In this document: in pieces, positions 32,981 through 42,161 of the stretch | Layout: each line of letters opens with the position of its first letter | Position numbering within the stretch: the first letter of the stretch is position 1 | Source of the DNA: a virus | Direction: 5' to 3' (one strand) | DNA: 56,853 nt | Virus record (IMG/VR): IMGVR_UViG_3300031251_000980 | Location: 1-56,853 of that record | Translations under genes and position numbers: made by a program | Notes under the pieces: model-generated | What the model saw: only the letters and a program-made list of their open reading frames with translations | What the model was told of the DNA's origin: nothing | Databases searched by the model: none

Positions 32981-33789
32981 CAGCGCCGGCCTCGTCGGTC
33001 GAGGATCAGGTCCACGTATTCGTGGTCGCTGGTGACGTATGCACTGAAGTCGAAGCCTGGCGGCTCTGGGAGTGGGTTTTCGGGTGCGGTGAATTCGTGC
33101 CAGTGCTGGTCGATCAGCGGCTGCAGCGGGTTCGGCGGCGACTCAAGCCATCGCCATCCCCGCGGCAACTGTGGTGGATGTTCCTCACGGGTCCGCAATT
33201 CGTAGCCCCAGTTGTGTGGTCCTGGCGTCCAATCGATTTCCGGAAGTGGCCGTTCGACTGGGTTGATCGATTGGTGCCATTCGTCGTAGATGATCCCGCC
33301 GGTTTGGTGGTGCCCTCGCGGTCCGATGAACCATTGGCCCACGTCGAGTGAGATGTCCGGTATTTGCCATTGCGGCCATACGAGTATCGACCGGAGTTGC
33401 TCCATGTACTCGCGGTATCGCTGCAGCCTCCAGGACCGTCGGTGGTCGACGACGATGTGGAAATAGATTTCTGGGCGCGGCTCGGCTGTCTCCATCGCGC
33501 GGCGTAGTCGTTCGGCATCCGTCAGGCCGTGGGCGCGGACCGGGCCGATGAAGTCGGAACCATCGCACAGCACGGGGCTGGTGTCGTCGGCGTGGATATA
33601 TGCGGGTTCATATTGGCCGAGCCAGTACATGCGGGCGATGGCGGCGGTGATGGGTAGTCCGTGCCAGTGTCGGCCGCAGTGCGGGCATTTCGGGTATTGG
33701 GGGTCGCCGTAGTCGTAGCCGGTCATCGGTTCGCCGGCGGCGAGTTGTTCGTCGATGAGTTCGTCGATGCGGTCGATGATGTCGCTCAT
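32980..33789 (-). CDS. hypothetical early protein with zinc-ribbon-like front
   Basis: 269 residues from ATG 33789 in an ATGA overlap. Near residue 35 is KCPHCGRHWHGLP, a CxxC motif followed by HxH. The rest is rich in Trp, Pro and His (WPQWQIPDISLDVGQWFIGP) with no clear catalytic signature. Unknown role. Confidence 0.65.
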   Translation of the reverse strand: MSDIIDRIDELIDEQLAAGEPMTGYDYGDPQYPKCPHCGRHWHGLPITAAIARMYWLGQYEPAYIHADDTSPVLCDGSDFIGPVRAHGLTDAERLRRAMETAEPRPEIYFHIVVDHRRSWRLQRYREYMEQLRSILVWPQWQIPDISLDVGQWFIGPRGHHQTGGIIYDEWHQSINPVERPLPEIDWTPGPHNWGYELRTREEHPPQLPRGWRWLESPPNPLQPLIDQHWHEFTAPENPLPEPPGFDFSAYVTSDHEYVDLILDRRGRR

Positions 33790-34184
33790 GAGATGAGTTG
33801 CATTCCAATCTCGCGCATGGTCTCGAGCGCGCCGGTGATCATTTCGTCGAAGCGGAACTTTCGCGCGTCTTGCATCATGGATTCCCGTGTGGGGTACCAG
33901 CGTCGGCGTCCCGAGGGTGCGGTGAGGTCCCATCCACAGAAGAGGATCGTCTTGCCGTTGATGATCATTCGGGCGCGCCGGGCGAGCCATTTACGTCGGG
34001 CCGGCAGGTTCGGCGCCGACCTGTGGAAGGCCGGGCGGCTGTAAGTCATCGTCAGGTTGCCGTCGTACAGGCATGTGCGCAGCAGTCCTCGAAAATCTGC
34101 GTTGCGCCGGTTCCGGCAGCCTTGGCACATGCACAGCGCCGCGATGGTCCACGGCGAGTTGTCGAGTATCGGGTTGTTGCTCAT
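33786..34184 (-). CDS. hypothetical early protein, basic with CxxC motif
   Basis: 132 residues from ATG 34184 (ATGA overlap). CMCQGCRNRRNADFRGLL near residue 20 could bind metal. A very basic middle (LPARRKWLARRARMI) suggests contact with nucleic acid. Unknown family. Confidence 0.65.
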   Translation of the reverse strand: MSNNPILDNSPWTIAALCMCQGCRNRRNADFRGLLRTCLYDGNLTMTYSRPAFHRSAPNLPARRKWLARRARMIINGKTILFCGWDLTAPSGRRRWYPTRESMMQDARKFRFDEMITGALETMREIGMQLIS

Positions 34185-34372
34185 ACCCATTGTCTCCGTG
34201 CGGTATAGGGGTGGAGTGCGAGTCGCCAGGTGGTGCCGCAGCTGCAGACTTTGCGGTGCCGGTCGTATCCGGATTCCATGCCGCCGAGGCCGTAGGAGTA
34301 GTCCATGTAGGTCACCCATTCGCGGGTGTGTTTGATCTTGTGGCCGCGGATTCGGTGCCAGAGGAGTTTCAT
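34181..34372 (-). CDS. small hypothetical protein
   Basis: 63 residues from ATG 34372, which shares bases with the upstream stop. Contains HRKVCSCGTTW, a CxC pair, and several His and Arg residues. It could be a small nucleic-acid-binding protein. No family recognised. Confidence 0.6.
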   Translation of the reverse strand: MKLLWHRIRGHKIKHTREWVTYMDYSYGLGGMESGYDRHRKVCSCGTTWRLALHPYTARRQWV

Positions 34373-35766
34373 CAGCAGCTCCCGGCGTGGATGAGTTCGC
34401 ATTCGTCGCAGTATCTTTCGCCTCGACGCGGTGGTTCGGGTGTGATGGTGTCGGTGATGGTGGATCGGGATGAGGCTGTGATCTTGTCCTCAGGTTTGAT
34501 CTCTTCCGCCTTGCGCTGCTTGCGCTTTGGCTTTTCGTAGCGGGGTTCGCGTTTCCATGCCCAGCCGTCTTGGTCGTGCTGGCGGAGGACGGTGGTGTCC
34601 TTGTCGGTGGCGATCTTGCGGTGTTCGGCGTCGGCGTGGCCGTCCATGCGCTCGCGGAGCGCGGTCAGGATGATCGTGCCGGCGCCAGCCTGGTCGATGA
34701 CGGTATCGCCGGTGAGCGTTTCGACGAGCGCGGCCACGCCGTCGAGTCGTGCATAGGCCTCTGCGAGAAGCCATTTCGTGGTGAGTTTTTCGCGTTCTTC
34801 GTCGCCGACGAGTCCGGCGAGAAGTTGGTATTCGCGGTCGGTCCACGACGACGGGCCCTTGGCTGTGCACTGGTCGTTCTCGCAGGTGACGATGCTGGCT
34901 CCGTCGTCGCGGCCGACGAGGGCCCCACAGTTCGGGCACGGCATGGCGTAGCGGTGGCGGAGTTTGGTCTGACCGAGGTGCTGGCGGACGAGGCCGTGGG
35001 TACGGGACAGGCGGAGCAGGACGTCGAGGCCGGAGATGACGGCGTCTTGGCGGGCCTGGCCGCGCTGCGGGTCGGGGTCCCAGCCGCAGCAGTCGTCGCA
35101 TGCGCCGGCGGCGGCGTAGGCGGCTTGGAGTTGGTCGATGGCGTCGGTGATCTCGCGGGCGATGCCTGTTTCGTCGGCGAGGACGCGGATGCGTTTGGCT
35201 CTGGCGACCTGTTCGGCGTGGATGTCGCAGCGCTTGGGTTGGGCCCAGATTTGGATTTCCTGGGGCGGCTGCGCGGCGAGGAGGTCGATGTGTGGTTCGA
35301 CGATGGCGAGGTAGGCGGCGAGGCGCTGGTGTTCGGGTGCGTGGCTGTTTTCGTGCTGGCGTTCGGCGAGAGAGCCTGATTCTGGCGGGCTGAGCGCCCC
35401 GTCTAGCCGAATTTCGGGCAGTTTCCGGTCTCCGTCCGGCAGAGCGGTCCCCAGGGCCTCTGAGACGCAGTCAGCGGCGAACCGGGCCCACTCGACGATG
35501 TCGGCGATGAGTCGCTCGCTGGTGGAGTCGATGAGGATGACCGGGCTGGGTGTGGAGTGCACGGGTGCGCCGTCGGCGCGGCGGCGCTCGCCGAGGGTGG
35601 CGCGGAGCATCGCGTAGTCGCGCATGAGCCGGCCGATGACGCTGCGGTAGGAGTCGTGGCAGCCGTCGCAGAGCACGTCGGGGTGCTCGGTGAATGCCGG
35701 TCGCCGGGTGTTGTTTTCGACAACGCTGGCGCGGCAGGCGGTATTTGCGATGCAGGCGTGGGTCAT
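34372..35766 (-). CDS. large zinc-ribbon protein of the early operon
   Basis: 464 residues from ATG 35766 in an ATGA overlap; the open frame runs on upstream but there it shadows the next gene. Cysteine sites: CIANTACRA at the N-terminus with CDGCHDSY near 33, CDDCCGWD near 230, CPNCGALVG near 284 with CENDQC near 304, and CDECELIH near the end. A DREYQLLAGLVGDEERE helix follows the ribbon. This multi-ribbon design recalls DNA-binding proteins found next to phage initiators; a replication or transcription role is inferred. Confidence 0.7.
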   Translation of the reverse strand: MTHACIANTACRASVVENNTRRPAFTEHPDVLCDGCHDSYRSVIGRLMRDYAMLRATLGERRRADGAPVHSTPSPVILIDSTSERLIADIVEWARFAADCVSEALGTALPDGDRKLPEIRLDGALSPPESGSLAERQHENSHAPEHQRLAAYLAIVEPHIDLLAAQPPQEIQIWAQPKRCDIHAEQVARAKRIRVLADETGIAREITDAIDQLQAAYAAAGACDDCCGWDPDPQRGQARQDAVISGLDVLLRLSRTHGLVRQHLGQTKLRHRYAMPCPNCGALVGRDDGASIVTCENDQCTAKGPSSWTDREYQLLAGLVGDEEREKLTTKWLLAEAYARLDGVAALVETLTGDTVIDQAGAGTIILTALRERMDGHADAEHRKIATDKDTTVLRQHDQDGWAWKREPRYEKPKRKQRKAEEIKPEDKITASSRSTITDTITPEPPRRGERYCDECELIHAGSC

Positions 35767-36137
35767 CGAGTGGTGCCTTTCTCGGCGGCGATTTGGGCGA
35801 GGACTGCTCGGCATTTGGCGAGTCCGCGCTGGTTGGTTTCGGTGTGGTCGATGTGGTCGCACACGACGCCGTTGGGGGTATATCCGTCGGTGTCGCATAG
35901 CTGGCAGTTAGCGATGCGGATCTGGTTGCGGCGCTTCTCGGCCTGGGTGGTGACGGTGTGCCGGTGTGCGCGTACCGCGTCGGCCTGCTGGGAAGTGAGT
36001 CCGGCGTGCGCGGTGCGGGTTTCGCCGAGGCGTTCGCGTTGTTGCCGGGCGCGCTCGACCGCTTCGGCGGATTCGCGGGCTCGGCGGCGTGAGTCGAAGT
36101 CGCCGACCTGGTCTTCGTCGCCGTATCGGTCAGGCAT
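35763..36137 (-). CDS. protein with C-x2-C-x2-DGY-x-C-x-H zinc motif
   Basis: 124 residues, ATG start. A basic helical front (RRRARESAEAVERARQQRER) and a C-terminal motif CQLCDTDGYTPNGVVCDH followed by RGLAKCRAVLA. The next gene ends with a near-identical motif (CDECDDDGYRAGLVCAH), so the two share a metal-binding module. It likely works with the replication initiator. Confidence 0.7.
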   Translation of the reverse strand: MPDRYGDEDQVGDFDSRRRARESAEAVERARQQRERLGETRTAHAGLTSQQADAVRAHRHTVTTQAEKRRNQIRIANCQLCDTDGYTPNGVVCDHIDHTETNQRGLAKCRAVLAQIAAEKGTTR

Positions 36138-37191
36138 CGTCGGTTCCGGTCTTGGTGAGCGCGGCCCGGACGGCAGCCATGCCGCGGGTGATGGTGTCGG
36201 CCTGGCCGGGGTTGTGTGCGCAGACGAGGCCGGCGCGGTATCCGTCGTCGTCGCACTCGTCGCAGTTGACGATCGCGAGCGCTCTGGCGACGGCGTCGGC
36301 TTCGCGTTCGGCTGCCGCGTCGAGCGCGGCTTGGCGTTGGGCGTCGTCGGCTGCGCGTGAGGCGTTGGCCTGCCATCTGGTCCAGGCGCGGTTCTGGACG
36401 ATGCAGTCGGGGCACTTCTGGGGCCAGCCGTCGGGCATGTGTTTCGGGCAGAAGCGTGGTGGTGTGTCGTTCGGGTCGGGTTCGGCGGCTTGGTGACGTT
36501 CCCCTGTTACGTAACCACTTTGGAGAATGGAGCTGGAGGTAGGAGCAGGAGACGGAGTAGGCCCCGGGTTGGACGGGGGGTTAACCCCTACCCCCCTGCT
36601 AACCGTTACACCGGGGGCTAGCGGTGGGGTTACGACAGGGGTTAGAACAGGGGTTAGCGAGGGGGTAAATGGCGGCAACGACGCCGGGTCAATCGCCTTC
36701 TGCGCCAGCAGATTCTTGACCGCCTCGCGCTGCCAGCCCGTCGACACGACCACCTCCGGGTCGGTCTTCGCGTCGGCCTCGTTGCGGGCCTTGATCTTCT
36801 TTGCCTCGTGCACGATGACACCGCGCAGCGTCCGCGACGCCAGCGCGGCCCGAGCATTGGCCATCGACACGGCCATGTTCGGCTTCTTCCAGATGCCGTC
36901 GTGCTTGATCCACGACCGCAGCAGGAACTCCTCGGTAAGGGTGTCGACGATAAGGAACATCTCGGCCGACAGCTCGACGCCGGCCGTTTCCACTGCGGCC
37001 GGGGTCCAGCCGCGGGCCAGAGATGCGATGCGGCCCGGGTGCCAGGTTCCTGTGCCGCAGTAGGACAGCTGTGGGCTGGTCCAGAGCACGAAGTACAGGT
37101 GTTGCGCGGGCGGGGTGAGGTCGAGCCAGTCGTCGTCTCCCCAGATGTCGAGATTGATCTCGGCGTGGTCTTTACCGGTCGCTCTGGCCAT
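36130..37191 (-). CDS. replication initiator (HTH replisome-organiser type) with origin-like linker
   Basis: 353 residues, ATG start with GAGAGG upstream. N-terminal ~140 residues look like a winged-helix replisome organiser (INLDIWGDDDWLDLTPPAQ, RGWTPAAVETAGVELS, WIKHDGIWKKPNMAVSMANA). A Pro/Thr-rich linker of about 50 residues has four-residue periodicity (LTPVLTPVVTPPLAP) that comes from 12-bp DNA repeats. The C-terminus has CPKHMP / CPDC and the shared CDECDDDGY motif. As in lambda O, the initiator may bind repeats inside its own gene. Confidence 0.75.
   Translation of the reverse strand: MARATGKDHAEINLDIWGDDDWLDLTPPAQHLYFVLWTSPQLSYCGTGTWHPGRIASLARGWTPAAVETAGVELSAEMFLIVDTLTEEFLLRSWIKHDGIWKKPNMAVSMANARAALASRTLRGVIVHEAKKIKARNEADAKTDPEVVVSTGWQREAVKNLLAQKAIDPASLPPFTPSLTPVLTPVVTPPLAPGVTVSRGVGVNPPSNPGPTPSPAPTSSSILQSGYVTGERHQAAEPDPNDTPPRFCPKHMPDGWPQKCPDCIVQNRAWTRWQANASRAADDAQRQAALDAAAEREADAVARALAIVNCDECDDDGYRAGLVCAHNPGQADTITRGMAAVRAALTKTGTDDA
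36506..36515. repeat. perfect palindrome GTTACGTAAC
   Basis: A 10-bp palindrome inside the initiator gene, about 70 bases from the GGGGTTA palindrome and 120 from the iteron array, near a stretch less GC-rich than its surroundings. It could be an additional site for initiator or regulator. Confidence 0.4.
36577..36673. repeat. iteron-like repeats, candidate replication origin
   Basis: Four 12-bp units start at 36626, 36638, 36650 and 36662: GGGGTTACGACA, GGGGTTAGAACA, GGGGTTAGCGAG and the weaker GGGGTAAATGGC. The palindrome GGGGTTAACCCC lies at 36577-36588, with degenerate copies between. Tandem units with the same length as two-thirds of a helical repeat multiple, placed inside an initiator gene, match the iteron plan of lambda-type origins. 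A clear AT-rich unwinding element is not obvious. Confidence 0.55.
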
Positions 37192-37318
37192 CGGTGTCCT
37201 CTCTCGTGCAATCGGGGCTGTGCCCTTGGGTGTTCGGGTGCCAGCCGCACTCGGCGCAGCGGCCCATCTGGCGCAGCTGCTCGGGGGTGAAAAGGGCGGT
37301 CATCCGCGGGTCGCTCAC
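37172..37318 (-). CDS. small CxxC protein
   Basis: 48 residues from GTG 37318, in a GTGA overlap with the WhiB stop. Contains CAECGWHPNTQGHSPDC, a compact Cys/His site. Its 3' end overlaps the initiator start by 20 bases. Role unknown. Confidence 0.6.
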   Translation of the reverse strand: MSDPRMTALFTPEQLRQMGRCAECGWHPNTQGHSPDCTREDTDGQSDR

Positions 37319-37635
37319 GATGCCTTCGATGCGTTCAGGACCTTCAGCGCTTCGCGTTCGGCGTGCGTGTGGCCGCCCAGGATGCCCTGCTCGCCGGATT
37401 CCATTGCGTCGCGCAGGCATTCGAGGCGCACTGGGCAGCAGGCGCAGATGGCTTTGGCTTCCCTGGCGGCGACTTCGGCCTTGGCGATGGCCTCGCGTAC
37501 CGCTTTGCCGCGGCCGGCGGGCGGCGGTGCTGGGAAGAACAGCTCAGGGTCGGCGCCGCGGCAGGCGGCGTGGTCGCGCCATCTCTGGTCGCGGATGGCG
37601 GCGCGGCGGGTGAAGGTGACGCTGAGGCTGCTCAC
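37315..37635 (-). CDS. whiB: WhiB-family iron-sulfur regulator
   Basis: 106 residues from GTG 37635 in a GTGA overlap. Four conserved cysteines: HAAC near residue 25 and CACCPVRLEC near 65-74, which hold a [4Fe-4S] cluster; then GILGGHTHAERE, the WhiB turn (GxxGG). WhiB proteins bind the housekeeping sigma factor in actinobacteria. A phage WhiB can block host WhiB2 and cell division or tune phage transcription. It sits mid-operon among replication genes. Confidence 0.88.
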   Translation of the reverse strand: MSSLSVTFTRRAAIRDQRWRDHAACRGADPELFFPAPPPAGRGKAVREAIAKAEVAAREAKAICACCPVRLECLRDAMESGEQGILGGHTHAEREALKVLNASKAS

Positions 37636-38009
37636 TGGCCCACCGCCGCCCGCATCTTCTCGACCTCTTCGGGGTATTCGTCGCGCCACTGCTGCCAGCT
37701 CGGGTCGGCCAGCTTGTGGTTGATCCACTCGGGCACATCAGGTTTAGCGGTGAACGGCTCCTCCCCCGCAGCGCACTTCTCGCACTGCTGCGGGCCCGCG
37801 ATGCCGCCCAGCTCGTCGACCTTGAACGACAGATGACCAGAGCAGAAGAACAGGCCGCAACCGTGCTCACCGCCGTACGGTTCGTCACCACAGACGTACG
37901 CGAGGCCACGGTCGATCCGCTCGGGGCAGTCCGGGTGGTCGCACTTCGCGGGGACGCCGTATCCGATGTCCCGCTTCCAGTTCGGGTCGTAGCCGACAGC
38001 CCAGCCCAT
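37632..38009 (-). CDS. Cys/His-rich hypothetical protein
   Basis: 125 residues from ATG 38009, sharing a base with the upstream stop. CDHPDCPERIDRG, GCGLFFCSGHLSF and CEKCAAG make three Cys/His groups spaced like a RING- or ZZ-type double zinc site. No enzyme motif. It may be an adaptor protein. Confidence 0.65.
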   Translation of the reverse strand: MGWAVGYDPNWKRDIGYGVPAKCDHPDCPERIDRGLAYVCGDEPYGGEHGCGLFFCSGHLSFKVDELGGIAGPQQCEKCAAGEEPFTAKPDVPEWINHKLADPSWQQWRDEYPEEVEKMRAAVGQ

Positions 38010-40900: not shown

Positions 40901-41263
40901 TCAGTCCTCTCGTGGTTGGTAGTCGGTGCAGGCGGGCCACCAGGCGCGGATGTCGGATGATTCGCAGCCGGTGTCCCGCGGGTAGGTCGTGCGCTCCCCG
41001 ATCTGCAGGGGCAGGTGGCATTTCGGGTAGGTCTTGTTGTGGTGCTCGAGCAGCTCCCGGAAGCGGCATCCGCCGCACCTGAGGCCCTGGCCCCCACGCT
41101 CACGCGCCGCGTCCGCGTGAATCCGGATCCGGCCCAGCGGATGCTCACCACGCGCGATGCGGGTGGCCACCAGACGGGCCCGCCGCTCACCACGAGACAG
41201 CACCTCTGGCGCCGGCGGAATCGTGTACGCGCTGTCCGGCACATCGAACAGGCCGTCGCTCAT
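40901..41263 (-). CDS. zinc-site hypothetical protein
   Basis: 120 residues from ATG 41263 in an ATGA overlap with the methyltransferase remnant. CGGCRFRELLEHH and KCHLPLQ then GCESSDIRAWWPACTDY form a Cys/His-rich half; the front is a flexible helix region. Unknown family. Confidence 0.65.
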   Translation of the reverse strand: MSDGLFDVPDSAYTIPPAPEVLSRGERRARLVATRIARGEHPLGRIRIHADAARERGGQGLRCGGCRFRELLEHHNKTYPKCHLPLQIGERTTYPRDTGCESSDIRAWWPACTDYQPRED

Positions 41264-42161
41264 GACGCTGACTCTCGGTGTTCGTCGAACAGCGACTGCT
41301 GCTGACTGATCGGCCGGTTCGACCAGATCACCTCGGTGCGTGCTTGGTTCGCGCCGTTCCCTTGGCCGGTCATGTGGGGAATCTCGATGCGGTGCCAGCC
41401 GGCCAGCGCGGTGTCGTACAGATCGGACGGGTAGCCGGACAGCACCACCGATGCGCGACAGGCCATCAGCGCCCAGAGCAGCTCGACGTGGTCGGCGTGG
41501 TCGGGCATGTCGATCCGGTATCCGTTGCCGCCGCCTCGCGTGCTGCGGGTGGCGCCGAGATATGGCGGGTCGACGTACAGGCAGCATTTCGGGTGTACGC
41601 CGTACTTCTCGATTCGACGTACAGGCAGCATTTCGGGTGTACGCCGTACTTCTCGATGATTTCGAGCGCAGGCAGCGACTCCAGGCTGACGTGGTGCAGC
41701 CGCTCGGCTGCTGCGGCCATGCGGTCGACGTAGGCAGTGAGGTAACCGGGCATTCCGGTCGAGTTGCCGCCTGGGTTGACGTAGGACCGCCAGCCGGTGC
41801 TCGATCGCATTGTGCCGCCGCGCGATTGCGTGATCTGGACCCATACGAGGCGAGCGATCTCGATGTCATCGAGACCGGCGAGGTCCGCACCGCGGGTGAG
41901 CGCGTGTTCAGCGCGAGCGTGCGGCGTGAGCGCGCAGACGCGGGCCAGCTGCTCTGGATGCTCGCGGAGTACTCGCCAGAAAGTCATCAGCAGGCCGTCG
42001 AGATCGTTGACGGTCTCCATCCGGCTCGGCCGCTTGGCCAGCAGAACGGAGAGGCCTCCCGCGAACGGCTCGATGTAGTGCTCGTGGGCCGGCAGCAGCG
42101 CGGCGAGCTTCGCGGCCAGCCGCGTCTTGCCGCCGTAATAGGCCATCGGCGGCGCGCTCAC
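41260..42161 (-). pseudogene. dam: Dam-type DNA adenine methyltransferase, broken by a 44-bp duplication
   Basis: The front is normal: AYYGGKTRLAAKLAAL (binding motif), HYIEPFAGGLSVLLAKRP (AdoMet site, FxGxG type). The C-terminal part continues in another frame with DPPYLGATRSTRGGGNGYRI and ends in HMTGQGNGANQARTEVIW. Between them the 44-bp repeat at 41570-41657 shifts the frame, because 44 is not divisible by three. Removing one copy joins CCLYV to DPPY with no gap and restores about 285 codons. As written the protein stops after 231 mostly wrong-frame residues. It may be a recent knockout, a phase switch or an assembly error. Confidence 0.85.
41570..41657. repeat. exact 44-bp tandem duplication inside the Dam-type gene
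   Basis: Copy one is 41570-41613 and copy two is 41614-41657, both beginning TCGACGTACAGG and ending TTCTCGAT, with no differences. Perfect identity means the copy is recent or not maintained by selection. Confidence 0.95.

Follow-up and report, generated by a model that had tools for sequence, protein, structure and literature searches.

The window analysed here, a 56,853-base virus record from IMG/VR that belongs to a phage of high-GC actinobacteria, contains a replication initiator gene with short repeats at a 12-bp pitch midway along its length. Are these repeats simply the code for a repetitive stretch of the initiator protein? Or, are they iterons, sites in the DNA at which replication is started by the very protein the gene encodes? 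If the latter is the case, does the array act alone, or is it one part of a longer origin?

The initiator gene and its repeats

The product of the gene matches PHROG 3171 over the full length of the profile (E 8.3e-117; residues 5-347, profile positions 1-329 of 331), and about 500 bp separate the start codon from the array downstream of it (Table 1). An initial annotation of this DNA had described GGGGTTA-based 12-bp units at 36626, 36638, 36650 and 36662. The first three are exact and the last is a variant, GGGGTAA. A palindrome reported at 36577 is there exactly, and the four-residue LTPx period that had been noted in the linker peptide is evident in the translation, TPSL-TPVL-TPVV-TPPL-APGV. 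TRF detects the 12-bp array independently (36614-36666 and 36626-36657). There are 7 copies of GGGGTTA in the window, 5 of them at the array locus, against 1.56 expected, a count reached in none of 100 shuffles.

Table 1. Features of the initiator locus, with positions in the window
Feature	Position	Strand	Basis or remark
Replication initiator gene, 353 aa	36130..37191	-	match to PHROG 3171 'replication initiation protein' profile
N-terminal DNA-binding domain (residues 1-166), predicted winged helix	36694..37191	-	AlphaFold model
Iteron array, 12-bp pitch, inside the initiator gene	36601..36670	-	motif positions, TRF, synonymous randomisation, conservation in relatives
Variant iteron TTTACCCC (GGGGTAA on + strand)	36662-36669	-	degenerate flanking unit
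Exact iterons TAACCCC (coding strand)	36650-36656, 36638-36644, 36626-36632	-	GGGGTTA on + strand
Variant iteron CTAGCCCC	36614-36621	-	degenerate unit
Variant iteron GTAACGGTT	36601-36609	-	degenerate unit
Palindrome GGGGTTAACCCC closing the array, two facing TAACCCC cores	36577..36588	.	exact
Pyrimidine tract CCTACTCCGTCTCCTGCTCCTACCTCC, candidate melting element	36535..36561	-	codon bias; 85% pyrimidine, 63% GC
Distal element GGTTACGTAACAGGGGAACGTCACC, GTTAC-N13-GTCAC	36492..36516	-	contains palindrome TTACGTAA at 36507-36514
C-terminal domain, two Cys/His clusters (CPKH...CPDC, CDEC...CAHN)	36130..36471	-	sequence; same Cys/His pattern in relatives
Next gene, 124-aa protein	35763..36137	-	PHROG families in common with the initiator C-terminal domain: phrog_3171 positions 240-330, phrog_21540, phrog_26247

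AlphaFold models the DNA-binding domain as a winged helix to which a helical bundle is added, with a mean pLDDT of 89.6. A Pfam scan of the window's initiator found no family at E up to 1, the RepA_N model PF06970 included, full proteins from five other relatives had no match in Pfam, and a PDB sequence search was likewise without a match. Foldseek with the domain model gave no confident match (best E 0.24), and RepA_N matches had E about 0.6. After structural realignment, 4pql_A, 4pta, 4pt7_B and 5kbj_C, which from their entry titles we take to be pSK41/RepA_N Rep structures, align weakly over about 90 residues (Z 7.9-8.3, rmsd 4.2-4.4). CRP-type winged helices tie with these in Z (about 8), aligning only about 66 residues. 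These comparisons suggest that generic winged helices and RepA_N initiators come nearest to the predicted fold, short of proof that it belongs to RepA_N. The C-terminal domains of the initiator family carry Cys/His clusters or are of other, unrelated types.

Selection on the DNA of the linker

One explanation is that the repeats merely encode a proline-rich, flexible linker of four-residue repeats, in DNA that has no role of its own. The linker is of low complexity and its peptide is regular in many relatives, both of which this explanation would predict. The codons, however, are far from expectation. When the protein was held fixed and codons were redrawn from window usage, 0.16 copies of TAACCCC were expected against the 4 seen, and none of 20,000 randomisations reached 4; when the gene's own codons were permuted, 3 of 20,000 reached the observed count. 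The leucine codon of LTP is CTA, which accounts for 3% of the leucine codons across the window's genes.

The reading frames also speak against the linker as the reason for the repeats. Among relatives, 34 genes carry TAACCCC in codon phase 2 and 16 carry it in phase 1; AACCCTTC is found in all three phases. The mycobacteriophage arrays parse as x-TA-ACC-CC (LTPx), those of Gordonia and Rhodococcus as T-AAC-CCC (NPxx), and the same DNA cores are translated, by frame, as LTPx, NPSx, KGxx or GTLREP. In two relatives with a pitch of 11-12 bp (L371 and L378), a single protein contains NPSG, TLRE and EPL in succession, all encoded by one DNA unit, and 11-bp-pitch arrays have no peptide repeat. Two others (L012 and L306) are 87% identical in the DNA-binding domain, yet their linkers are LTPx and NPW/NGG/KGG, unrelated peptides that are built on TAACCC, TAACGG and TAAGGG cores. 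The distal element of Table 1 is also kept in other reading frames, at 24 of 25 bases in L003 and 22 of 25 in L368. Since two or three frames are used to read the same cores, it is the DNA that sets the peptide. The repeats are genuine and under selection at the DNA level, and the explanation from linker coding is largely refuted, with very little probability left to it. Because the iterons lie within coding DNA, the linker peptide is dictated by them, and its four-residue period is a by-product of their 12-bp pitch. It is a clear case of DNA function setting protein sequence, in which one iteron becomes LTP, NP, KG or GTLREP according to frame. Identity of third bases at lag 12 was significant in some individual genes only, and was not so in the window's own gene (p 0.52), so the argument at the DNA level rests on motif counts and frames.

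Might the selected feature be a nucleic-acid structure, a G-quadruplex or an RNA hairpin, rather than a set of protein-binding sites? On the non-coding strand, four G runs are separated by 8-nt loops, and a weak hairpin can fold. The folding energy is unremarkable (z -1.8 and -1.3), however, and the series of G runs is broken in many relatives because they mix AACCCT, AACGGT and AAGGGT on one strand of one array. A structural signal is disfavoured, with a negligible chance of being correct.

The array across the initiator family

Searching with tblastn, relatives of the initiator were found in at least 221 phage records, and in many of these actinobacteriophage records it is annotated only as a hypothetical or HTH protein. 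Profile and pattern searches added prophages and metagenomic phages. The resulting 155 open frames were reduced to 79 non-redundant initiators with dissimilar DNA-binding domains, from actinobacteriophages and prophages, a set that is biased to Mycobacterium, Gordonia and Rhodococcus phages and whose members are related, with counts that are not independent.

Repetition was measured as self-match by lag in the 150 nt after the DNA-binding domain, with the domain itself as the control. For the 79 initiators the self-match has sharp peaks, of 0.473 at lag 12 (control 0.305) and 0.425 at lag 24 (control 0.312). Among lags 4-23, lag 12 is the strongest in 66 of 79, compared with 8 of 79 in the control region; in about one sixth of the relatives the top lag is other than 12 bp. 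The exact 12-mer palindrome is present in the linkers of 13 of the 79, and 12-bp repeats stand at the corresponding position even in a distant homologue from Bifidobacterium, with about 30% identity. The initial annotation had suggested aligning related phages to see whether the repeats are kept while the linker residues drift, and had named a lack of conservation as refuting its reading. The relatives do show such conservation and drift, with the array at the same position in the initiator and its core kept across reading frames.

Viral contigs were also scanned for TAACCCC-N5-TAACCCC. Among the matches listed, 7 examined loci strongly match the initiator profile, and among those listed for a reversed-pattern control no examined locus does. 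Plasmid homologues exist in Prescottella equi and Bifidobacterium longum. They lie among hypothetical genes, in P. equi also with integrase and phage-recombinase genes, and because of these surroundings give no independent support for a replicon function. On the sequence evidence, the arrangement is family-wide and not peculiar to the window's phage, which the initial annotation had not recognised. In one relative, Mycobacterium phage Cabrinians (L023, 1992-2953), a one-base difference in a C run within the array splits the initiator into two annotated frames, which is either a real frameshift or a sequencing error.

The array does not follow all parts of the initiator equally. Over 2,485 pairs its similarity has a partial Spearman correlation of 0.50 with identity of the DNA-binding domain and 0.17 with identity of the C-terminal domain. 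Individual phages provide natural domain swaps. Zapner and Yoshi are 97% identical in the C-terminal domain and 62% in the DNA-binding domain, and their arrays differ; Zapner and Drago are 92% identical in the DNA-binding domain and 40% in the C-terminal domain, and have an array type in common. As far as sequence comparison can tell, these cases show array and DNA-binding domain to be inherited as one unit. The winged-helix domain presumably recognises the iterons, and the swaps between Zapner, Yoshi and Drago are a ready-made test of such recognition.

This co-variation also bears on whether the array could be a parS-like partition signal, or a packaging signal, for another protein. Mycobacteriophages do use short direct repeats as parS (RedRock, PMC7157519). 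However, the arrays vary with the DNA-binding domain of their own gene and keep a fixed place throughout the family, the record has an integrase gene, and parAB was not found among the scanned subset of the window's proteins. A signal for partition or packaging is therefore very unlikely.

A candidate origin within the gene

The array belongs to a longer candidate origin, at about 36492-36670, whose other parts, a pyrimidine tract and a distal element, the initial annotation had missed. The tract comes after the array and consists of successive codons for Pro, Thr, Ala and Ser. Its third bases are T or A in 80% of 647 tract NCN codons, compared with 24% of 4,409 such codons in the genes' own DNA-binding domains. 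With its GC content in the window it does not qualify as AT-rich, and a classic AT-rich unwinding element adjoining the array is absent. Across relatives the tract is nearly always in one reading frame, so that its status as DNA rests on the codon bias and on two relatives in which it is a 7-bp tandem repeat running through all frames (ACTCCTA-type in L346 and CCTAATA-type in L389, a Bifidobacterium homologue). The distal element has the form GTYAC-N13-GTYAC, which is present in 18 of 79 relatives, in all three frames and with the N13 spacing nearly unique, and in 0 of 79 controls. For the valine within it, 23 of 23 genes use GTA, a codon whose background is 6%.

We conclude that 36492-36670 is very probably an in-gene iteron origin that is recognised by the initiator's own winged-helix domain. 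The initial annotation's interpretation of the repeats as an origin inside the initiator gene is supported, and we infer that binding, melting, recruitment and origin activity take place there. An alternative is that the initiator binds the array only as a set of operator or titration sites, which govern its own expression or copy number, and that replication starts elsewhere. Array, domain and recognition logic would look identical in sequence, and plasmid iterons can serve regulation (PMC5703833). Yet some 500 bp into the gene is an unusual place for an operator, the codon-biased tract and the distal element lie on the same side of the array, as expected of an origin, and repeat searches found no other iteron-like arrays near the gene. 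This alternative is unlikely.

How might such an origin work? In a mechanism modelled on RepA_N (PMC5703833) and lambda (PMC7466680), the N-terminal winged helix would bind its own 12-bp iterons, with their TAACCCC cores and end palindrome, as an ordered assembly. The assembly would strain the adjacent tract, which would open and may stay held single-stranded. The C-terminal domain would contact the host replisome and, possibly together with a protein at the distal GTYAC element, recruit the host helicase or primase. Searches for the DnaA box TTRTCCACA with up to 1 mismatch found none between 34.5 and 38.5 kb, and none closer to the array than 1 kb. The sign of the GC skew stays the same across the array site, but skew is uninformative because the genes run one way. 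The skew is strongly positive at 33000-36500 (up to 0.205) and has the same sign, at 0.074, in the 2-kb interval with the initiator gene; gene direction may be behind this drop.

In-gene origins are already known as a kind. In lambda, the O protein binds to iterons that lie midway along its own gene and adjoin a melting tract (PMC7466680). With its N-terminal domain, the pSK41 Rep protein of the RepA_N plasmids binds four boxes situated centrally in its gene; the ori encodes its linker, and its C-terminal domain contacts primase (PMC5703833). By analogy, the best reading is that the phage origin resembles lambda oriO, and the RepA_N plasmids even more. The likeness to lambda is one of layout, mid-gene iterons flanked by a melting tract, which in the window's phage is a candidate. 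Lambda, however, has four iterons and an AT-rich tract, whereas the window's phage has a 12-bp pitch, a GC-rich, triplet-biased tract and an additional distal element. The RepA_N replicons (pSK41 Rep, PF06970) resemble the phage, for which winged helix and origin are predicted, in a winged-helix N-terminus, central in-gene repeats, an ori-encoded linker and a separate C-terminal domain, which in pSK41 contacts the replisome. Unlike the RepA_N boxes, which include A+T-rich DNA, the phage iterons are GC-rich; the phage initiator also has no PF06970 match, and differs in its C-terminal domain of Cys/His clusters or other unrelated types.

In the cluster A mycobacteriophage RepA prophage replicons (Miko, Jeeves) an origin was suspected in or next to repA, and no repeated motifs were found (PMC7157519). 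Their initiators are RepA-like mycobacteriophage proteins. In the initiator family of the window, by contrast, repeats are evident and family-wide. The DnaA-trio of bacterial oriC has the consensus 3'-GAT-5' on one strand (PMC10201434, PMC10797057). It likewise is a period-3 tract beside duplex binding sites, and by our reading the G/A strand of the phage tract also runs 3' to 5' away from the iterons. In the phage, however, the site is without DnaA boxes, the period of 3 coincides with codons, and (N-C-T/A)n is not strict CTA. Because there is no DnaA box near the tract, the likeness is one of analogy only. In the open-access literature searched, no earlier description of an iteron origin in PHROG 3171 initiator genes was found. 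What is unusual here is the breadth across actinobacteriophages, the multi-frame iterons, a tract that is both GC-rich and codon-biased, and the conservation of a distal element.

A further possibility, which we put forward tentatively and consider doubtful, is that this is a distinct three-part origin that dispenses with an AT-rich unwinding element. It would consist of iterons, a tract of (N-C-T/A)n or 6-7-bp repeats captured single-stranded in GC-rich DNA by the initiator (or by host DnaA, in a trio-like manner), and a GTYAC-N13-GTYAC site for a second factor, all in coding DNA and free to slip frames. Part of an essential protein would then be written by origin constraints. The anatomy in any case suggests where hundreds of actinobacteriophages start copying their DNA, a precise and testable site, and the literature searched yielded no mapped origin for these phages. 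New plasmid vectors for laboratory strains of Mycobacterium, Gordonia and Rhodococcus could also be derived from such origins.

Further features were noted around the initiator gene and elsewhere in the window. A WhiB-like gene (Pfam PF02467) lies just upstream, at 37315-37728. The 124-aa protein encoded downstream is likely, from its PHROG families, to be a partial duplication of the initiator C-terminal domain. Recombination genes (RecT- and RecE-like) and methyltransferases are present in the same genome arm, which is in keeping with the proposed origin. One DNA (adenine-type) methyltransferase gene (41466-42161, minus strand) contains a perfect 44-bp tandem duplication, at 41570-41657. As 44 bp is not a whole number of codons, the gene carries on in a different frame (41260-41844), and the duplication marks either a gene that is broken or a length switch that can be reversed.
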